Shown in pieces: positions 40,847 through 51,579 of a stretch of 64,000 bases of DNA. Each line of letters begins with the position of its first letter. The stretch's first letter is position 1. The position numbers were made by a program, and so were the translations under genes. The DNA lies in assembly GCF_026810505.1 (NCBI RefSeq), contig NZ_CP101750.1:7614515-7678514 (forward strand), given 5' to 3'. The notes below the pieces were generated by a model, which was not told where the DNA came from, searched no databases, and was given only the letters and a program-made list of their open reading frames with translations. Source of the stretch: Streptomyces sp. Je 1-369. GTDB taxonomy: Bacteria > Actinomycetota > Actinomycetes > Streptomycetales > Streptomycetaceae.

Positions 40847-41878
40847 ATGGGTGCAGCCAAGGGTAAGAGCGCGGCCGTGGACATCGACACGGGGGAGCGG
40901 ACGGTGCGTCTCTCCAGCCCGGACCGGGTGGTCTTCCCGGAGCGCGGCTTCACCAAGCTCGACGTCGCCGAGTACTTCGTGGCCGTCGGCCCCGGCATCC
41001 TGCGCGCCCTGCGCGACCGCCCCACCACCCTGCAGCGCTACCCGGAAGGGGCGGCCGGCGAGTTCTTCTACCAGAAGCGTGCCCCGAAGAACCACCCCGA
41101 CTGGATCCCCACCGCCACCATCGCCTTCCCCAGCGGCCGCACCGCCGACGAGATGTGCCCCACGGAGGTGGCCGCCGTCATCTGGGCGGCCCAGTACAAC
41201 ACCCTCACCTTCCACCCCTGGCCCGTGCGCGGCGACGACCTCGACCACCCCGACGAACTCCGCATCGACCTCGACCCGCAGCCCGGCACCGACTACGCGG
41301 ACGCGGTCCGCGCCGCCCATGAACTGCGGGCGTTGCTCGACGAGTTCGGGGGCCTCGAAGGCTGGCCCAAGACGTCCGGCGGGCGCGGGCTGCACGTCTT
41401 CGTGCCCATCGAGCCGCGCTGGACCTTCACGCAGGTGCGGAGGTCGGCCATCGCCGTCGGACGGGAACTGGAGCGGCGGATGCCGGACGCCGTCACGACG
41501 GCGTGGTGGAAGGAGGAGCGGGGGGAGCGGATCTTCGTGGACTACAACCAGACGGCCAGGGACCGCACCATCGCCTCCGCCTACTCGCTCCGCGCCCGCC
41601 CGCACGCCCCCGTGTCGGCGCCCCTGCGCTGGGACGAGGTCGAGGACGCGCGCCCCGAGGACTTCGACCTCGCCACCATGCCGCGGCGCTTCGCCGAGGT
41701 CGGCGACGTCCACGCGGGCATGGACGAGCACCGGCACTCGCTGGAGGCGCTCCTCGCCCTCGCCGACCAGGACGAGCGGGACCACGGCCTCGGAGACCTG
41801 CCGTATCCGCCGGAGTACCCGAAGATGCCGGGGGAGCCGAAGCGGGTGCAGCCGAGCCGCGCGAAGCACGAGGAGTAG
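40847..41878 (+). CDS. Non-homologous end-joining polymerase, stand-alone LigD polymerase (primase) domain
   Basis: 343 residues. The AEP-type polymerase/primase fold of LigD: 'VFPERGFTKLDVAEYF', 'YQKRAPKNHPDW', the metal-binding Asp pair in 'RIDLDPQPG' and 'PKTSGGRGLHVFVPI'. There is no ligase or nuclease domain attached. Such single-domain polymerases (PolD-like) work with Ku and separate ligases in actinobacteria. The ATG at 40847 is chosen; an ATG at 40820 is possible. A strong terminator follows the stop. Confidence 0.9.
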   Translation: MGAAKGKSAAVDIDTGERTVRLSSPDRVVFPERGFTKLDVAEYFVAVGPGILRALRDRPTTLQRYPEGAAGEFFYQKRAPKNHPDWIPTATIAFPSGRTADEMCPTEVAAVIWAAQYNTLTFHPWPVRGDDLDHPDELRIDLDPQPGTDYADAVRAAHELRALLDEFGGLEGWPKTSGGRGLHVFVPIEPRWTFTQVRRSAIAVGRELERRMPDAVTTAWWKEERGERIFVDYNQTARDRTIASAYSLRARPHAPVSAPLRWDEVEDARPEDFDLATMPRRFAEVGDVHAGMDEHRHSLEALLALADQDERDHGLGDLPYPPEYPKMPGEPKRVQPSRAKHEE

Positions 41879-41879
41879 C

Positions 41880-41911
41880 GGCGCCCCCGTCCCGGGCGGG
41901 ACGGGGGCGCC
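41880..41911 (+). terminator. Strong hairpin terminator
   Basis: A 14-bp perfect stem (GGCGCCCCCGTCCC and its complement at 41898-41911) with a 4-nt loop starts one base after the polymerase stop codon and lies 24 bp from the convergent DUF1080 gene. Confidence 0.85.
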
Positions 41912-41935
41912 GACACGACGGGGCGGGAACCGGGG

Positions 41936-44167
41936 CTACAGCTCCTTGATCCTGATGTCGCGGTACGACACCACGTCCGTCACACCGTGGACCTGTAGCC
42001 CGACGTAGCCGGACGCGTACCTGCGGCCGTCCGTGCCCGGGTCGTCACCGCGCGGCGGCGTGAACTCCTGGCCGCCGGTGTTGTCGAACTCGTTGATCAG
42101 GGCACCGTTGCGGTAGATCGAGTAGTGCTGGTCCACCACCTTGATCTCGTAGTCGTTCCACGTGCCCTTCGGGGTGACACCGGCGCCGGCCAGGCCCACC
42201 CGGTCGAAGCCGTAGATCGACCCGGTCTTGTACATGTCGCCGTCGGGGCGGTCGTGGATCTGCACCTCATGCCCGTACTTGATGGCGACCCACTCCGGAC
42301 GCGACTCCTCCGGGTGGTCGTGGACCTGCGGGAAGCGCGTGAAGACACCGCCGTTGGTGTTCCCGTTTCCCGGCGCGTCGTCCCGCCACTGCAGCTTCAG
42401 CGAGAAGTCGCCGTACTTGCGCTCGGGAAACCACAGCATGCCCATGCCCTGGACCGACGTGGAGCTGGTGATCGAGCCGTCGACGTTGAGGCCGAACCTG
42501 CCGCCGCCCACCTGCTCCCACTGGTCGAGGGACTTCTGCGTGCCGTCGAAGAGCTTGCGGTAGCCCTCCGTCCGGCCGGGCTTGCCGATGCCGGACTGCT
42601 TGGCCGCGCGGTTGATCTTGTTGTACTCGCGCTGGTCGATCTCACCCGCCCTGAGGAGCTTGTCCGTCACGGCTTTCACGTGCTTCAGGAAGAGCGCGTG
42701 TGAGGTCCACTCCTTCTCGTCCTCGATCAGCTCGCCCACCCGGCAGCGGTTGTTCGTGACCCGGTTCGGGATGCCCGTGTCGACCGTGCCCACGAACACC
42801 GTCAACCGCTCGTCGTACTCGGGGCAGTCGGGGGCCGGTACGCCGCCGCCCTCGGCCACCGTGAAGGAGGCGGTCCTCGCCTCCGACGCGTTGCCCGCCT
42901 TGTCGTTCGCCCGGTACGCCACGGTGTGGCGCCCCACGCGGTCGACGACGACCGGCGCCTCGTACGCGAGGTAAGGGCCGCCGTCCAGGGAGTACTCGAC
43001 CCTGTCGACCCCCGAACCGGTGTCCGTGGCGGTGACCGTCACCTTCGCCTTGCCGAGGTAGGCGCCGTCCGAGTCCTTGCTGCCCTCGACCTTCGCCGAC
43101 GTCTCCGGCGGTGTCCTGTCCTCGACGGGCGGCGCGACGACGGTGAAGTCGACGGCCTTCTCGGCGGCCTGGTTGCCCGCTTTGTCGGAGGCGCGGAAGC
43201 GGACCTTGTGGGCGCCCACCTCGTGGACCATCACCGGCGCGGTGTACGCGGTCCAGGCGCCGTCACCGAGCGCGTACTCGATCTTGTTGACGCCGGAGCC
43301 GGTGTCGGACGCGGTCACCGTGACCGTCGCCATCCCGACGTACTGCCCCTGGTCGTTCTTCTCGCCGGTCACCGTGCCCGATGTCTCCGGAGGCGTCTTG
43401 TCGTCCGTCGGCGGCGCGACGACCTTGAAGTCGGCCGCCTTCTCCGCGGACACGTTGCCCGCCTTGTCGGTGGCCCGGTAGCGGATCGTGTGGGTGCCGA
43501 CCTTGTCGACGACCACGGGCGCGGTGTACGGCTGCCACGCGCCGTCCGCCCCCACCGCGTACTCGACCTTGTCGACGCCCGAACCCTCGTCCGTCGCCGT
43601 CACGGCCACCGTCGCCGAACCGACGTACGCGCCGTCGGCGTTGGTGGTCCCGTCCACCTTCGCCGCGGCCTCCGGCGCCTTGGTGTCCTCGCCGCCGCCC
43701 TCGGTAACGACCAGGATGCCCTGCATCGAACCGTGGCCAGGGATGGTGCAGTGGTAGCGGTAGCGGCCCGGGGTGAGCGTCACCTCGGCGGTGTGCTTGC
43801 CGCCCTTGTCGTCATTGGGGTTGGCGAGGATGTTGAGCGTGACGTCGTTGTTGTACTCCGGGTCGGAGGCGTCGAACGTCAGCGTGTGCGGCATGCCGGT
43901 CGTGTTGCCGGTCGCCTCGCTGTTCTCGAACACGATCGTCGTCGGGCCCGCCACCGCCGTCGTCGGCGCCGACTTGTACTTGGAGATGTCGTTGTCGGCG
44001 GTCCAGGTGAGCGTCTGCGCCTGCGCGGCGGTTCCGGTGTCGTCGGGGCGGGCCACCGCCGCCGTCGACGTCAGGCCGAGCACCATCAGGAGCGCGGCGA
44101 ACAGTGCCGTATACAGTCTTCGTTTCTGGGCGGACCGTGAGAACCGCTGCGTAGGAGATCGCATCAT
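41936..44167 (-). CDS. Exported multidomain protein: cupredoxin + three Ig-like repeats + DUF1080 (3-keto-glycoside hydrolase-like)
   Basis: 743 residues. After a signal/anchor helix ('LYTALFAALLMVLGLTSTAAVA') comes a plastocyanin-like domain whose type 1 copper ligands are visible as His in 'GMPHTLTF' and Cys-His-Met in 'YHCTIPGHGSMQG'. Three tandem beta-sandwich repeats of about 90 residues follow (each with 'VTxTDxGSGVDKVEYxL'-type wording and 'YRATDKAGN'), then a C-terminal DUF1080 lectin-like domain ('FDGTQKSLDQWEQVG', 'GNTNGGVFTRFP', 'YEIKVVDQHYSIYRNG'). DUF1080 members hydrolyse 3-keto-disaccharides. ATG at 44167 overlaps the upstream gene's stop (ATGA). Confidence 0.85.
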   Translation of the reverse strand: MMRSPTQRFSRSAQKRRLYTALFAALLMVLGLTSTAAVARPDDTGTAAQAQTLTWTADNDISKYKSAPTTAVAGPTTIVFENSEATGNTTGMPHTLTFDASDPEYNNDVTLNILANPNDDKGGKHTAEVTLTPGRYRYHCTIPGHGSMQGILVVTEGGGEDTKAPEAAAKVDGTTNADGAYVGSATVAVTATDEGSGVDKVEYAVGADGAWQPYTAPVVVDKVGTHTIRYRATDKAGNVSAEKAADFKVVAPPTDDKTPPETSGTVTGEKNDQGQYVGMATVTVTASDTGSGVNKIEYALGDGAWTAYTAPVMVHEVGAHKVRFRASDKAGNQAAEKAVDFTVVAPPVEDRTPPETSAKVEGSKDSDGAYLGKAKVTVTATDTGSGVDRVEYSLDGGPYLAYEAPVVVDRVGRHTVAYRANDKAGNASEARTASFTVAEGGGVPAPDCPEYDERLTVFVGTVDTGIPNRVTNNRCRVGELIEDEKEWTSHALFLKHVKAVTDKLLRAGEIDQREYNKINRAAKQSGIGKPGRTEGYRKLFDGTQKSLDQWEQVGGGRFGLNVDGSITSSTSVQGMGMLWFPERKYGDFSLKLQWRDDAPGNGNTNGGVFTRFPQVHDHPEESRPEWVAIKYGHEVQIHDRPDGDMYKTGSIYGFDRVGLAGAGVTPKGTWNDYEIKVVDQHYSIYRNGALINEFDNTGGQEFTPPRGDDPGTDGRRYASGYVGLQVHGVTDVVSYRDIRIKEL

Positions 44168-46689
44168 CCCGCCTTCCTGGCCAGGTCGTCGGCGGCCGGT
44201 GTCGCCGCCCCGCCCTTGTACGTCACGCGCCACAGCGCCGACTTGGAGTCCGAGGTGAAGAAGCCGCGGCCGTAGTCGAGGACGTACAGCGAGCCGTCCG
44301 GCGCGAACTTCCAGTCCATGAGGTTCTTGATGCCGTCGTTGCCGATCGGAATGATCTTCTTCAGCGACTCGGCGTGGACGGGCAGACCGCCCTTGCCGAC
44401 CGTCTTCGGATCCGTCACCACCGCGTGCCGCGGCTGGTCGGAGTCGTAGAAGTCACCGACGAACCACTTGCCGTCCCAGTAGGCGGGCCACTTGTCGGCG
44501 CCGGCGTTCGCCGCGTCGAAGCGGTAGACCGGGCCGTTCATCGTGGCCTGGCCGCCGCCCTTGAGCCACGGCAGGAGAATCTTCTGCTCCGCCGCCTTGT
44601 AGCTCGGCACGCCCTTCGCGTCGCGCGGGTAGTCGACGCCGCCGCCCTGCGGCGAGTACCAGATGTTGTTCGGCTCGGCCGGCGGGATGTTCACCAGGCC
44701 GTCGTTGTTCGGCGACTCGTTCTTGAGGTTCTCGCAGTCGTACCAGCCGAGCGGCTTCGTCGGGTCCGGCAGATTGCGGTCGCGGTAGGGCTGGTTGTTG
44801 CCCATGCAGTACGGCCAGCCGCGGTTGGAGGCATGGGTGATCGCCGCGAACGTGTCGTACTTCGCGGGGCCCCACGTCGTCGACGGCGCGCCCGCGTCCG
44901 GTCCTACCCAGCCCGCGTACAGCGTGTCCGTCTTCTTGTCGATCGAGATGCGCGCCGGATTCCTGACGCCCATCACATAGATCTCACCGCGTGTCTTGCC
45001 GCCGCCCTCGTCCGGCTCCTTGCCGGTGAAGAGGTTGCCATCGGGGAGCGTGTACGTCCCGTCGGCCTCCGGATGGATGCGCAGGATCTTGCCGTTGAGG
45101 TTGTTGGTGTTGCCGGCCGTGCGGCGCGCGTCGGCGAACGAGACGCCCTTGAAGTTCGGCTGCGGGTTGTTGCCCGAGTAACCGTCCGAGAACTGCGAGG
45201 AGTTGTTGTCACCCGTCGCGATGTAGAGGTTGTTCTTGGAGTCCCAGGCCATGCCGCCGCCCGCGTGGCAGCAGCTGTGGATCTGCACCGGCCACTTCAG
45301 GAGCACCTTCTCGCTGCCCATGTCGAGCTTGCCCGTGCCCTGGTCGTAGGTGAACCGGGAGACGTACCGCTCCGCCATGTGCGTCTCGCGGTTGATCTTC
45401 GAGTGGGGCGTGTAGTGCAGGTACACCCACCCGTTCTGCTCGAACTTCGGGTCGAGCTCGATGCCGAGGAGGCCCTCCTCGACCTTGATCAGCTCGTCGC
45501 CACCGCCCTTGTTGCCGAAGACGGTCAGCGCGCCCGCGAGCGTCGACTTCTTGGTCTTCGGGTCGTAGACGTGGATCTCGCCCGTGCCCTTGCCGATGTC
45601 CGGGTTGTTCCAGTCGGTGATGACGGGCTGCGAGGAGTCGGCGCCGCCGCGGCCGATGTGGAAGACCTTGCCGTCGGGCGCGGTGACCAGGCCGTGCGGC
45701 TCGCCGATCTGGTCGTTCCTGCCCGGCTGGTTGGCCTGGGTGAGCCGCTCCGCCTTGTAGTTGGCGTTGATCGTCGCCCGGCAGTCGGCACGCGCGATGC
45801 GGGTGGTCCACAGCAGGGCGCCGCGCAGATGGCTGCGGAAGTCCGCTTCGTCGTACGACGCCGCCGTGCCGCCCATGCCCGTGTAGAAGGAGCGTCCGCC
45901 GTCGTAGTCACGGCACCAGGACACCGGGTGGTCCCAGCCGTTCTTGCCCGCGCCCGGCTGGTAGGTCGACTCGCGGACGCGGGCGACCGTGTGGACGTCG
46001 CCCGAAGGGTTCTTCGTCCAGTTCAGCCACCGGTCGGGGCGCTTCCACTGGAGCGGCAGGCCCTTGGTCGCGGGGTGCTCGCGGTCGCCGACCTCGACGG
46101 TGGCGCGCTGGACGCCGTCCGGGCTCGCGTCGGCGGGGCGGGCGCCGATCAGGCCGGTGAACCAGCTCGAGTACGGCTCGGCGCGGGCCGCGTCGTGGAT
46201 GCCGAGGAAGCCGCCGCCGGCCTCCATGTAGGCCTCGAGGCCCGCTTCCTGCTCGGCGTCGAGGACATCGCCGCCGCCGGTGAGGAAGGCGACGGCGTTG
46301 AACTTGCCGAGCCTCCTCTCGTCGGTGAAGACGGACGCGTCGTCCGTCGCCACGATCTTGAACCGTTCGGCCGCGGGGCCCGACTGCCCGATCTTCTCGA
46401 TGGCCTCGATGCCCGCGTTGACGACGGGCGACTCGTCGCCGCCCGCCGCCGAACCGTGGAAGACCAGGACCTTGACGTTGGCCCCGCCGGGCGGCGAGGG
46501 CAGGGACATCGTTGTCAACGACGGCTCCGGGTACGGCCGCGCGGACGCGGCCTGCGCGGAGAGCGCCCCGGTGACCATGACGCCGGACAGCAGCGCGGCC
46601 GCCCAGGCCCGGCGCCCGCGGTCCGGTCTGCGTCGATTTCTGCTCAACCCTCGTACGGTCAAGGGCTCTTGATGCGGTGTGCGCCGCAT
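44164..46689 (-). CDS. Exported ThuA-domain / PQQ-type sugar dehydrogenase fusion
   Basis: 841 residues. A basic, Tat- or Sec-like signal ends near 'GALSAQAASARP'. Residues of about 60-290 form a ThuA domain ('KVLVFHGSAAGG', 'GGGFLGIHDAA', 'HPVSWCRDYDGGRSFYTGMG'). The remainder is a beta-propeller of the soluble glucose/sorbosone dehydrogenase class ('GLLGIELDPKFEQNGWVYLHY', 'HSCCHAGGGMAWD', 'GEIYVMGVRNPARI', 'YVLDYGRGFF'). Family members oxidise sugars with PQQ. ThuA relatives belong to disaccharide oxidation pathways. Coupled translationally to the cupredoxin-DUF1080 gene and divergent from a laccase. ATG 46689 is favoured over GTG 46701. Confidence 0.85.
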   Translation of the reverse strand: MRRTPHQEPLTVRGLSRNRRRPDRGRRAWAAALLSGVMVTGALSAQAASARPYPEPSLTTMSLPSPPGGANVKVLVFHGSAAGGDESPVVNAGIEAIEKIGQSGPAAERFKIVATDDASVFTDERRLGKFNAVAFLTGGGDVLDAEQEAGLEAYMEAGGGFLGIHDAARAEPYSSWFTGLIGARPADASPDGVQRATVEVGDREHPATKGLPLQWKRPDRWLNWTKNPSGDVHTVARVRESTYQPGAGKNGWDHPVSWCRDYDGGRSFYTGMGGTAASYDEADFRSHLRGALLWTTRIARADCRATINANYKAERLTQANQPGRNDQIGEPHGLVTAPDGKVFHIGRGGADSSQPVITDWNNPDIGKGTGEIHVYDPKTKKSTLAGALTVFGNKGGGDELIKVEEGLLGIELDPKFEQNGWVYLHYTPHSKINRETHMAERYVSRFTYDQGTGKLDMGSEKVLLKWPVQIHSCCHAGGGMAWDSKNNLYIATGDNNSSQFSDGYSGNNPQPNFKGVSFADARRTAGNTNNLNGKILRIHPEADGTYTLPDGNLFTGKEPDEGGGKTRGEIYVMGVRNPARISIDKKTDTLYAGWVGPDAGAPSTTWGPAKYDTFAAITHASNRGWPYCMGNNQPYRDRNLPDPTKPLGWYDCENLKNESPNNDGLVNIPPAEPNNIWYSPQGGGVDYPRDAKGVPSYKAAEQKILLPWLKGGGQATMNGPVYRFDAANAGADKWPAYWDGKWFVGDFYDSDQPRHAVVTDPKTVGKGGLPVHAESLKKIIPIGNDGIKNLMDWKFAPDGSLYVLDYGRGFFTSDSKSALWRVTYKGGAATPAADDLARKAG

Positions 46690-46888
46690 GAGTACACCCA
46701 CCCCTCGTCGGTCACAGCAACAGCGCCGACGAAGCTAGACCTCTTTTCGCGCCCCGCCAATAGGTATCACCGCGATAGCACCAACTTTGTCCTGCGTGTG
46801 GATAAACAAAGATCCGGCCGATACCGTGTGGCCGTCCCCGGGGCCTCCTGCGCCCCGTCAGTCTCCGTACCGCAGTGGGGAGTTCGTC

Positions 46889-48025
46889 ATGGACCGATCG
46901 AACCGACGGGATCCGAACGGGCGGGAGCCGGGCAGGCGGGGGCTGGACCGGCGCAGCTTCAACCGTCGGATGCTCGTGGGCGGCGCGGCAGCGGCGGCGG
47001 GGGTGACATCGTTGTCGGTGGCGGGTGCGCCGGATGCGAGGACGGCGGAGGCGCCGCCGAGGACGGCGCCCGCGGGCGGCGAGGTCAAGCGCATCAAGAT
47101 GTACGCGGAGAAGCTCCCCGACGGGCAGATGGGGTACGGCCTGGAGAAGGGCAAGGCGTCCATACCCGGTCCGCTCATCGAGCTGAACGAGGGCGACACG
47201 CTGCACATCGAGTTCGAGAACACGATGGACGTCGACGCCAGCCTGCATGTGCACGGCATGGACTACGAGATCTCCAGCGACGGCACGCGACACACCAAGA
47301 GCCATGTGGAGCCGGGCGGCAAGCGCACGTACACCTGGCGCACGCACGCGCCGGGCCGCCGCAAGGACGGCACGTGGCGCCCCGGCACGGCGGGCTACTG
47401 GCACTACCACGACCACGTCGTCGGCACGGATCACGGCACCACGGGCGTGCGCAAGGGGCTCTACGGCGCGCTGATCGTGCGGCGCAAGGGCGATCCGCTG
47501 CCGGACAAGACGTTCACCATCGTGTTCAACGACATGACGATCAACAACAAGACCGGCCACGACGCCCCCGCGTTCGAGGCGACGGTGGGCGACCGCGTCG
47601 AGTTCGTCTCGATCACCCACGGCGAGTACTACCACACGTTCCACGTGCACGGTCATCGCTGGGCGGACAACCGCACGGGCCTGCTGACCGGCCCCGACGA
47701 CCCGAGCCAGATCCTCGACGACAAGATCACCGGCCCGGGCGACTCCTTCGGCTTCCAGGTCGTCGCGGGGGAGGGGGTGGGGGCCGGGGCGTGGATGTAC
47801 CACTGCCATGTCCAGAGCCACTCGGACATGGGGATGGCGGGGCTGTTCCTGGTGAAGAAGGCGGACGGGACGATTCCGGACTATGAGCCGCATCATCGTG
47901 CCGGGGCGTCGAAGTCGTCACCGAAGTCGTCCGGCGAGTCCTCGTCGAAGTCGTCGTCCGAGCCGTCGGCGAATCCCTCAGCGGAGGCCCCGGCCGAGGC
48001 CTCCGGGGGACACCACCACGGCTAG
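46889..48025 (+). CDS. Two-domain small laccase (multicopper oxidase), Tat-exported
   Basis: 378 residues. The twin-arginine region '[18 protein letters not shown]' exports a folded, copper-loaded enzyme. The copper motifs of small laccases (SLAC/EpoA) are complete: 'HVHG', 'WHYHDH', '[10 protein letters not shown]' and '[13 protein letters not shown]', which supply the trinuclear and type 1 sites. The two-domain form functions as a trimer. The C-terminal tail is Ser/Lys/Ala-rich and ends in 'GGHHHG', a possible extra metal-binding tail. It is divergent (199 bp) from the sugar-dehydrogenase operon. Its TAG stop shares the palindrome CTAG with the convergent gene. Confidence 0.93.
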
Positions 48026-49506
48026 TCGTCGGCGTCGGCGCGCAGCCGCTCCATCAGCTGGGTGGTCATCTCGGCGAGGTCGTCCGGGTCCGGGTAGCCG
48101 GACGGTTCCGCGCAGCGGTCCGTCCAGCCGGAGGCCTTCAGCCGCTCCAGGCGTTCCAGGAGGCGGGGGCGGATGTCTTCGGGCAGCCGGAACCCGTCGT
48201 CCAGCGCGGCGAACAGGCAGGCGGACACGAACCCCCAGTGGGCTTCGGGGGATTCGAGCTCGTGCAGCAGCCGGTCGTACGCGTCCGGGATGTTCCGTGC
48301 GAGTGCGTCGCCGAAGCTGACCGCGCGGAGGGCGGGGACCGGCGAGTCGGCGTGCCGCTGCAGCGCGTCGGTGACGGCCCCGACGTTCCGTTCCTCGGCA
48401 CAGTCGAGACCGGCCAGCGCCCGCGCGGCGGCGACGCGGACGGCGGTCTCCCCGTCGTCGTCAAGGAGCGCGACGAGCCCCTCCACGGCCTCCCGCTCCA
48501 CGGGGGAACCCTCGGCCATCGGGTCGAGGCCGTTGGCGGCGGCCTGGCGCACGTCGGCGTCGGCGTGCCGCAGGGCTTCGAGGAAGAGCGAGTACGGCGG
48601 CTCGGCCAACGGCTCGTGCATCTGGAGCTCGTCGTAACAGCGCAGTACCTCGGCCAGGACGCGCGGGCCGGGCTTCCCGGCGGCCAGCCGGTCCAGGGTC
48701 CGGCGGACCGGTTCGTACCGAAGCGTGTCGTTGAACAGCAGCAGGTCCGACAGCAGCTCGACGCCGAGGGCGGATCGGTCCGGATCCTGGTCGGCGCAGA
48801 GGTCGAGGGCCTCGTCGATCAGCAGGCCGACCTGGGCACGTTCGGTCCAGGAGTCCTCGTCGGCGGCCTGCGCGACGTCGACGACGATGTCGGCGCGCTC
48901 CTTGGAGCCCGGCGCGAGGGGCAGCGCTTCCGCGAGCAGCTCCCGCGCCCGCCCCCGCAGCCGCTCAGCGTCCTCCCCGCTCAGCGGCTCGTTCCTGCGC
49001 ACGACGAGCGACGCCAGGATGACGGCGAAGTCGAACGCCAGGTCACGCTGGAAGTCACCGGGCCGCCCGACCCCGTCGAGCCCCTGCGGGGTCCAGCCCT
49101 GCGCGCGCAGATACGTGAGGCGTTCCCGCATGTCGTCCTGGATGTCCCCGCCGACCTCCCGCAGCGCCGGAGGCCCGCCGAGCTCCGCCACGAAGCGGGT
49201 CCACGCCCGCAGGAAGCCCTCGGGGTCGTCCACGTGCCCGGCGACGATCCCCTCCACGCGCTGCCGCACCCCGGCGTCGCGGCGCAGCACGGCGCAGAAG
49301 CCGTCGACCACGGTCTCGTGGAAGTCGTCCGTCCACGGCTCGCGCGCCACGGCAGCGGCCAGTTCCCGAAGCGCCCACTCCAGATCGGCGGCCTCGGCGG
49401 CATCAACCGCCGCCTTGGCACGAACCGCCACATCCGGATCCCGCAGAGCGGCCCCCAGCTCCTCGTGCAACTCGGCCAGCTTGCGCTCTCTCCGCTTCTT
49501 GAACAT
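48022..49506 (-). CDS. HEAT-repeat protein
   Basis: 494 residues, entirely helical and acidic. HEAT-type helical hairpins are clear near residues 330-440 ('[19 protein letters not shown]', '[18 protein letters not shown]', '[17 protein letters not shown]'). There is no signal or membrane segment. HEAT solenoids are protein-interaction scaffolds; nothing indicates the partner. Start ATG 49506. Its stop overlaps the laccase stop on the opposite strand within CTAG at 48022-48025. Confidence 0.8.
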
Positions 49507-50526: not shown

Positions 50527-51579
50527 GTGACCGAGGAACCGCGTCCCACTCTGGAGGCCGTGGCCGCGCGTGCCGGGGTTTCCAGGGCCACCGTCTCGCG
50601 CGTCGTCAACGGGGACCCGGGGGTGCGGGAGGTGCTCGCCGAGAAGGTGCGGCGGGCCGTCGACGAGCTCGGATACGTGCCCAACCGTGCCGCCCGCAGC
50701 CTGGTCACGCGGCGCCACGACGCGGTCGCCGTGGTGATCGCCGAGCCCGAGACGCGGGTCTTCGCCGACCCGTTCTTCGCGCTGCAACTGCGCGGCATCA
50801 GCAAGGAGTTGACGGCGCACGACATTCAGCTCGTGCTGCTGCTCACCGAGGGGCGGGACGATCACGAGCGGGTCGGACGGTACCTCGCGGGCGGGCACGT
50901 CGACGGCGCGCTCGTCTTCTCGCTGCACCTGGACGACCCGCTGCCCGGCATCATCCGCCGCGCCGGTGTCCCGACCGTGTTCGGCGGGCGCCCCGGCTGG
51001 CCCCGGGCGGAGGGTGGCGGACCGGACGTGCCCTACGTCGACTGCGACAACCGGGGCGGCGCGCGGGAGGCGGTGCGGTATCTCGTCGGTCTCGGGCGGC
51101 GCCGCATCGCCCACATCACGGGGGCTCTCGACCAGACCTCCGCGGTCGACCGGCTCGACGGGTACCGCGACGTGCTCGCCGACGTCGACCCCGGGCTGAT
51201 CGCCGAGGGGGACTTCACCCCCGCGGGCGGGGAGCGCGCGATGCGGGAACTCCTCGACCGTGCACCTGAGTTGGACGCCGTCTTCGCGGCCAACGACCTC
51301 ACCGCGTCCGGTGCCCTCCGGGTGCTGCGGGAGCGGGGCCGCAGGGTGCCGGACGACGTGGCGGTGGTCGGCTTCGACGACATGCTCCCGGTCGCCGAGC
51401 AGACCGAACCGCCCCTCACCACGGTGCGTCAGGACATCGAGGAGATGGGGCGGTTGATGGCCGGGATCCTTCTCCGGGGAAGGGGCGGGGCGGCCGGTCC
51501 TGACGGGGAGGCGGAGGGCGGCGGCGGGCCCGCCGGTGTGGTGCTGCCGACAGCCCTCGTGCGCCGCGCCTCGGCGTAA
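50527..51579 (+). CDS. LacI-family transcriptional regulator
   Basis: 350 residues. The N-terminal HTH and hinge are 'TLEAVAARAGVSRATVSRVVNG' and 'ELGYVPNRAARSL' (to about residue 60), followed by a periplasmic-binding-protein-like sugar domain with 'DGALVFSLHLDDPLPG', 'VDCDNRGGAREAVRYL' and 'AVFAANDLTASGALRVL'. GTG start at 50527. The likely target is the perfect TGAGAGCGCTCTCA site upstream of the GH64 glucanase gene, 1.4 kb away, so the inducer may be a beta-1,3-glucan oligosaccharide. Confidence 0.9.
   Translation: MTEEPRPTLEAVAARAGVSRATVSRVVNGDPGVREVLAEKVRRAVDELGYVPNRAARSLVTRRHDAVAVVIAEPETRVFADPFFALQLRGISKELTAHDIQLVLLLTEGRDDHERVGRYLAGGHVDGALVFSLHLDDPLPGIIRRAGVPTVFGGRPGWPRAEGGGPDVPYVDCDNRGGAREAVRYLVGLGRRRIAHITGALDQTSAVDRLDGYRDVLADVDPGLIAEGDFTPAGGERAMRELLDRAPELDAVFAANDLTASGALRVLRERGRRVPDDVAVVGFDDMLPVAEQTEPPLTTVRQDIEEMGRLMAGILLRGRGGAAGPDGEAEGGGGPAGVVLPTALVRRASA

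Follow-up and report, generated by a model that had tools for sequence, protein, structure and literature searches.

A small laccase and its gene neighbours in Streptomyces: a possible copper route from extracellular sugar breakdown to oxygen

The window analysed here is the whole stretch of 64,000 nucleotides taken from the 8.8 Mb genome of Streptomyces sp. Je 1-369 (contig NZ_CP101750.1, labelled G000:C1 below), positions 7614515-7678514. Within it, three adjacent genes, here termed A, B and C, encode a ThuA protein with a GSDH-type propeller, a cupredoxin fused to a DUF1080 domain, and a small two-domain laccase. Protein A is 95% identical to its counterpart in S. atriruber. The gene neighbourhood, in Streptomyces and in some other soil bacteria, suggests that the small laccase passes electrons from sugar breakdown to O2 outside the cell. 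The positions of A, B and C in the original prediction agree with the sequence, as does its layout of a coupled A-B pair and a divergent C, borne out by the strands and by an ATGATG at the start of B that contains the TGA stop of A, so that the two genes overlap. The best start for B is 44167, the mechanically called open reading frame beginning at 44233. The features of the locus are as follows.

44164..46701, minus strand: A, predicted secreted ThuA and GSDH-fold dehydrogenase, 845 amino acids
45805..46473, minus strand: ThuA domain of A, residues 77-299 (Pfam; coordinates by arithmetic)
44206..45786, minus strand: GSDH-type six-bladed propeller of A, about residues 306-832
41936..44167, minus strand: B, cupredoxin, three OmpL47-type repeats, linker and DUF1080, 743 amino acids, overlapping the end of A
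43697..44020, minus strand: cupredoxin domain of B, about residues 50-157
42848..43690, minus strand: three OmpL47-type immunoglobulin-like (Ig-like) repeats of B, about residues 160-440
41939..42568, minus strand: DUF1080 / 3-keto-disaccharide hydrolase domain of B, residues 534-743
46889..48025, plus strand: C, SLAC-type two-domain laccase with a predicted twin-arginine translocation (Tat) type signal
46786..46806: inverted repeat TTTGTCC-N7-GGATAAA, conserved in the gap separating the divergent genes A and C and probably an operator
46732..46761, minus strand: conserved blocks TAGCTT / TTGGCG, candidate -10/-35 of A (promoter reading by eye)

Conservation and rearrangement of the gene set

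The three genes form a conserved unit far beyond Je 1-369. A sample of 81 genomes comprised that of Je 1-369 and those of 80 relatives, with 49 of the 81 belonging to one genus; identical sets of 28 genomes from this genus carry orthologues of A, of B and of C. One further genome, G048, retains only the ends of B and C; there the 3' ends of the two genes nearly touch and A is missing, as if through one deletion (L083:5291-6067). No A or C orthologue was found in the remaining 20 same-genus genomes, one of which (G036) shows a 45-residue match to the end of B. Gene order and strands are identical in the regions of all 27 other carriers, with B of one region (L084, genome G037) ending before DUF1080. 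A polymerase-domain gene that flanks the set (about 40859-41878 in the window) is conserved in 22/27 of these regions and a LacI-family regulator gene near laccase C (50527-51579) in 12/27. Mere local synteny was rejected as the whole explanation, since both neighbours are missing from L084 and L085, where the three genes persist, and distant families keep the set despite new fusions and strands.

Across 296 genomes sampled from the class, 42 encode C (E<=1e-30), and A (E<=1e-150) was found in 41, all of them within the 42. The 42nd genome (G079) has a fragment of B running off a contig end beside two laccases. Fisher's test for the co-occurrence of A and C, which ignores the relatedness of the genomes, gives 1e-49. 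A scan of named genomes for the laccase (the best 80 of 566 relatives, all Streptomyces or Actinacidiphila) found ThuA, GSDH, cupredoxin and DUF1080 together at 78 of the 80 loci, the remaining two being truncated where a contig stops, and A divergent from C at all 80. The co-occurrence beyond this strain that the original prediction had set as a check is therefore confirmed, A being a neighbour of C in 41/41 genomes of the class sample, on one contig and within about 2 kb (distances judged by eye). This recurrence across relatives, class sample and named genomes led to the rejection of a strain-specific quirk. A-type proteins are also present in Micromonospora, Amycolatopsis, Georgenia and Promicromonospora.

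Outside the genus there were 33 laccase matches, and 20 regions holding 25 of them were examined. A adjoins the laccase in 17 of the regions (co-directional in 12, divergent in 5), and DUF1080 and a cupredoxin are present in 16 of these, the 17th (L227) being cut off at the beginning of its contig. Six A proteins from outside the genus are about 1350-1430 residues long and combine ThuA carrying an inserted F5/8-type domain with GSDH, PKD and DUF1080; where DUF1080 is fused to A in this way, the cupredoxin-Ig protein is encoded by its own gene. The fusion partner of DUF1080 varies with lineage, being the dehydrogenase in some and the cupredoxin in others. The cupredoxin-DUF1080 fusion on which the original prediction was built is real here but represents one of several arrangements; the same architecture of cupredoxin ligands, Ig repeats and PF06439 in proteins of Micromonospora and Plantactinospora (P0048, P0105, P0073) shows that it is not confined to Streptomyces. 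Of the three regions without A, two (L221 and L224) contain tandem laccases and a cupredoxin-Ig protein without DUF1080, and the third (L236) contains a lone laccase. An intact cupredoxin accompanies the laccase in 18/20 regions, and does so even where the dehydrogenase is missing.

Predicted properties of the three proteins

C has two multicopper-oxidase domains and its closest solved chain is the laccase 3cg8 (1.3e-176), which we take to be S. coelicolor SLAC. The laccase of S. coelicoflavus (L174) is near-identical to 3cg8 over 326 aligned residues. The eleven copper ligands of SLAC are given in PMC3918160 and map, with a shift of 18, to H120, H122, H174, H176, H249, H252, H254, H305, C306, H307 and H311 of C, all of them invariant in 13/13 aligned sequences. 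By sequence and copper ligands C is thus assigned to the SLAC-type two-domain laccases, and its export is predicted from a Tat motif, RRSFNRRML, recognised by eye. In tandem laccases, one copy is missing a type-1 copper ligand, through a change of Cys to Thr (YHTHV) in L238 (L238:10205-11794) or of His to Tyr in one copy of L221 and of L223 (QSYSD, QGYSD). Such copies possibly form mixed trimers or have an altered function. In L223 (L223:10694-20000) one laccase copy carries a C-terminal segment, PLTVTAS..VGTSVYVAVTAVNDG, that recurs at the C-terminus of the cupredoxin-Ig protein and of a secreted protein of the TIM-barrel type (PF01261), as if directing these proteins to one place.

B appears by eye to carry a Sec-type signal peptide. 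It matches 3keto-disac_hyd in Pfam at 7.6e-34 and contains three OmpL47-type repeats, while Copper-bind is weak (1.9e-4; 22.2 bits vs a cut-off of 21.2). A profile search with the cupredoxin part retrieved auracyanin and plastocyanin, and H94, C140, H145 and M148 make up the type-1 copper set, invariant in 14/14 and 29/29 sequences of two alignments; the intact His/Cys/His/Met ligands of the original prediction therefore stand. Its proposal that DUF1080 cleaves 3-keto-glycosides likewise gains support, as this part of B has the family profile PF06439 and, in a structural search, the fold of solved 3-keto-glycoside eliminase/hydratases. The domain arrangement in the predicted model of B is unreliable (predicted template-modelling score, pTM, 0.41), and the structural search barely covered the cupredoxin part; the structural searches rule out no family. 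In L084 (L084:6884-8008, genome G037) the B homologue stops after the Ig repeats, and DUF1080 was not found at 1e-10 within 14 kb.

A, for which a Sec-type signal peptide is likewise suggested by eye, matches ThuA (2.7e-59) and GSDH (5.6e-23) in Pfam. Its propeller is six-bladed, as in the GSDH fold, and its best fold matches are enzymes dependent on pyrroloquinoline quinone (PQQ). Sequence alignment to known enzymes places the catalytic His and the Arg-Asn pair at PQQ at H479, R580 and N581, invariant in 52/52 sequences, as is a Cys-Cys pair, C477-C478, just before the His.

A shared inverted repeat and a putative regulon

The consensus TTTnTCC-N7-GGAnAAA, with at most one mismatch (<=1), occurs once per locus in 80/80 of the named loci (the best 80 of 566), invariably in the A-C intergenic region, and is exact at 70 of them, with zero occurrences of the reversed-pattern control in the same 1.43 Mb. 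The whole host genome contains four exact sites vs 0.02 expected; with one mismatch allowed there are seven places, where the reversed control gives one and theory predicts 1.3. The first exact site is that in the A-C intergenic region. The second precedes a ROK gene heading ATP-binding cassette (ABC) importer genes, a Gfo/Idh gene and a TIM-barrel (PF01261) gene, and the third lies inside this ROK cluster, before a GSDH-PKD-CBM6 gene and a ThuA-DUF1080 gene. The fourth stands just before a PA14-CBM35-DUF1080 gene encoding up to 1021 amino acids (G000:C1:943307-946372; L246:5307-8372). All four exact sites are thus located at DUF1080/GSDH genes or their ROK cluster.

Eighteen of 20 homologous ROK clusters in other genomes have a site (<=1 mismatch) before ROK or GSDH, 11 of the sites being exact and the control giving 0. 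The site lies before ROK in 10/10 clusters where that stretch was included, and before GSDH in 11/20. As the repeat between A and C is common to the DUF1080, GSDH and ROK-importer loci, the laccase is probably part of a 3-keto-glycoside regulon. Four of the genomes with a ROK cluster (G004, G015, G016 and G020) have no A-B-C, suggesting that the ROK cluster is the core of the system and the laccase set an accessory. The ROK protein may bind the inverted repeat as its operator; the RokB site at novH, TTTGTTC-11-GAACAAA, has a similar layout (PMC4856308).

Electron path, alternatives and known systems

The core of the original idea is strengthened well beyond the observation from which it started, and rests on the linkage of genes and domains, the shared inverted repeat, the folds, and the conserved copper and propeller residues. 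From these we infer a cofactor, a substrate, a position of oxidation (C3), a regulator, and a path and direction for the electrons. The propeller of A, probably with scavenged PQQ, would oxidise a sugar or glycoside outside the cell, and DUF1080 and ThuA would cleave the keto-glycoside by elimination followed by hydration. The cupredoxin would accept the electrons singly and pass them on to laccase C at its type-1 copper, and the laccase would reduce O2 to water. In Streptomyces this unit would be co-regulated, probably by the ROK regulator, with the sugar importer, the Gfo/Idh dehydrogenase and the TIM-barrel isomerase, as well as with further secreted GSDH, ThuA and DUF1080 proteins. The probability that the locus serves oxidative glycoside breakdown outside the cell, with the cupredoxin relaying electrons to the laccase and on to O2, is put at roughly 0.45. 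A broader and tentative proposal is that actinobacterial small laccases are mainly terminal oxidases of an extracellular copper chain that drives 3-keto-type glycoside cleavage, not phenol oxidases, and that in Streptomyces they are switched by ROK together with the importer of the products. Such a role would fit Gram-positive bacteria, in which secreted enzymes presumably cannot reach the membrane respiratory chain.

Several observations bear on PQQ dependence and on the reach of the operator. Of the C-terminal Arg/Arg and Lys by which known enzymes hold the PQQ carboxylates, the two arginines appear to be replaced in A, their positions aligning with N793 and M795 (in an alignment stretch scoring -1.2 bits). 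The PQQ synthesis genes that the original prediction expected did not appear: a search of the host genome for PqqC found none, while 6/296 class genomes score over the cut-off, and a search for PqqE gave nothing over the cut-off. Furthermore, the repeat is absent from the outgroup laccase regions save for a single one-mismatch site in L226, so that among the regions examined control through this repeat is limited to Streptomyces. With PqqC present in only 4/42 laccase-bearing genomes, PQQ would be either scavenged or not the cofactor. PQQ genes as travelling companions of the locus were also considered and showed no association (in the class survey, PqqC occurs in 4/19 same-genus genomes with the laccase vs 1/9 of the others, 28 genomes in all).

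The main rival is quinone cycling, in which the laccase would turn plant phenols or hydroquinones into quinones, the dehydrogenase would use these as acceptors, and the cupredoxin would be a side carrier or copper store. Fungal sugar dehydrogenases can use laccase-made quinones as acceptors. This scheme accounts for the gene linkage equally well, and 12/23 compounds tried with SLAC proved to be substrates, phenolic acids and flavonoids among them (PMC3918160). However, it leaves unexplained the cupredoxin beside the laccase in 18/20 regions outside the genus, two of them without a dehydrogenase, and is considered unlikely.

Slightly less probable is a propeller without PQQ, acting as a sugar-binding scaffold or in other catalysis, with the laccase working on a substrate of its own and the genes joined by one sugar signal. 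The missing PQQ synthesis genes and the apparently changed clamp would suit this, as would the close fold match of A to the propeller of HHIP, which is non-enzymatic. PQQ can, however, be acquired from outside the cell. The catalytic residues are invariant in A, the best fold matches are PQQ enzymes, and the clamp itself varies, since fungal AA12 holds PQQ with other residues (PMC6881789). Storage of copper or protection against it by the cupredoxin and laccase, with the sugar genes as passengers, is very improbable: SCO6710, a "glycosyl hydrolase" for which CsoR repression is listed as putative (PMC6414726), probably corresponds to B by gene order, since SCO6712 is SLAC, but the shared operator ties C to sugar import and DUF1080 genes, copper-dependent expression would equally suit a copper electron chain, and a loose home-made CsoR-like pattern, a weak test, found no site in 41001-48100.

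Small laccases have many solved structures, and a paper on one of them states that what most characterised bacterial laccases do physiologically is still unknown (PMC3527528). The linkage described here offers this question a specific, testable answer, in that it names partner proteins, predicts an electron donor and points to a regulon and its operator. If the copper chain is correct, an oxygen-linked extracellular route would be added to the breakdown of sugars through 3-keto-glycosides. In the open-access literature searched (subscription journals being outside its scope), no paper was found that connects a small laccase with ThuA, with DUF1080 or with a sugar dehydrogenase, nor any description of gene partners and an operator for a SLAC-type gene; the families are known singly, and their combination was not found in print there.

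The lactose route of Caulobacter, with LacABC and DUF1080 (PMC9007349), likewise places a secreted or periplasmic dehydrogenase beside a DUF1080 protein, with 3-keto-disaccharide cleavage proposed outside the cytoplasm. There, however, the dehydrogenase is the membrane-bound LacABC, whereas here it is a GSDH fold with ThuA, accompanied by copper proteins (cupredoxin and laccase). The 3-keto-glycoside eliminase/hydratases of Bacteroides and Alistipes (PDB 8rr2, 8v31, 8tda and BT2157 3osd) are single-domain proteins with 22-25% aligned identity, whereas the DUF1080 described here has a cupredoxin as its fusion partner, or ThuA-GSDH in other families. Enzyme C does not differ from SLAC, Ssl1 and other two-domain laccases (3cg8; PMC3527528, PMC3918160). 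A resembles the PQQ aldose sugar dehydrogenases (3a9g, 2ism, 3das) and fungal AA12 in its six-bladed fold, catalytic His and Arg-Asn, and differs from PQQ dehydrogenases in the apparent loss of the clamp arginines, the Cys-Cys before the His and the attached ThuA. The AA12 pyranose dehydrogenase also joins a PQQ propeller to an electron-carrier domain (PMC6881789), which there is a cytochrome b and here would be a copper carrier.
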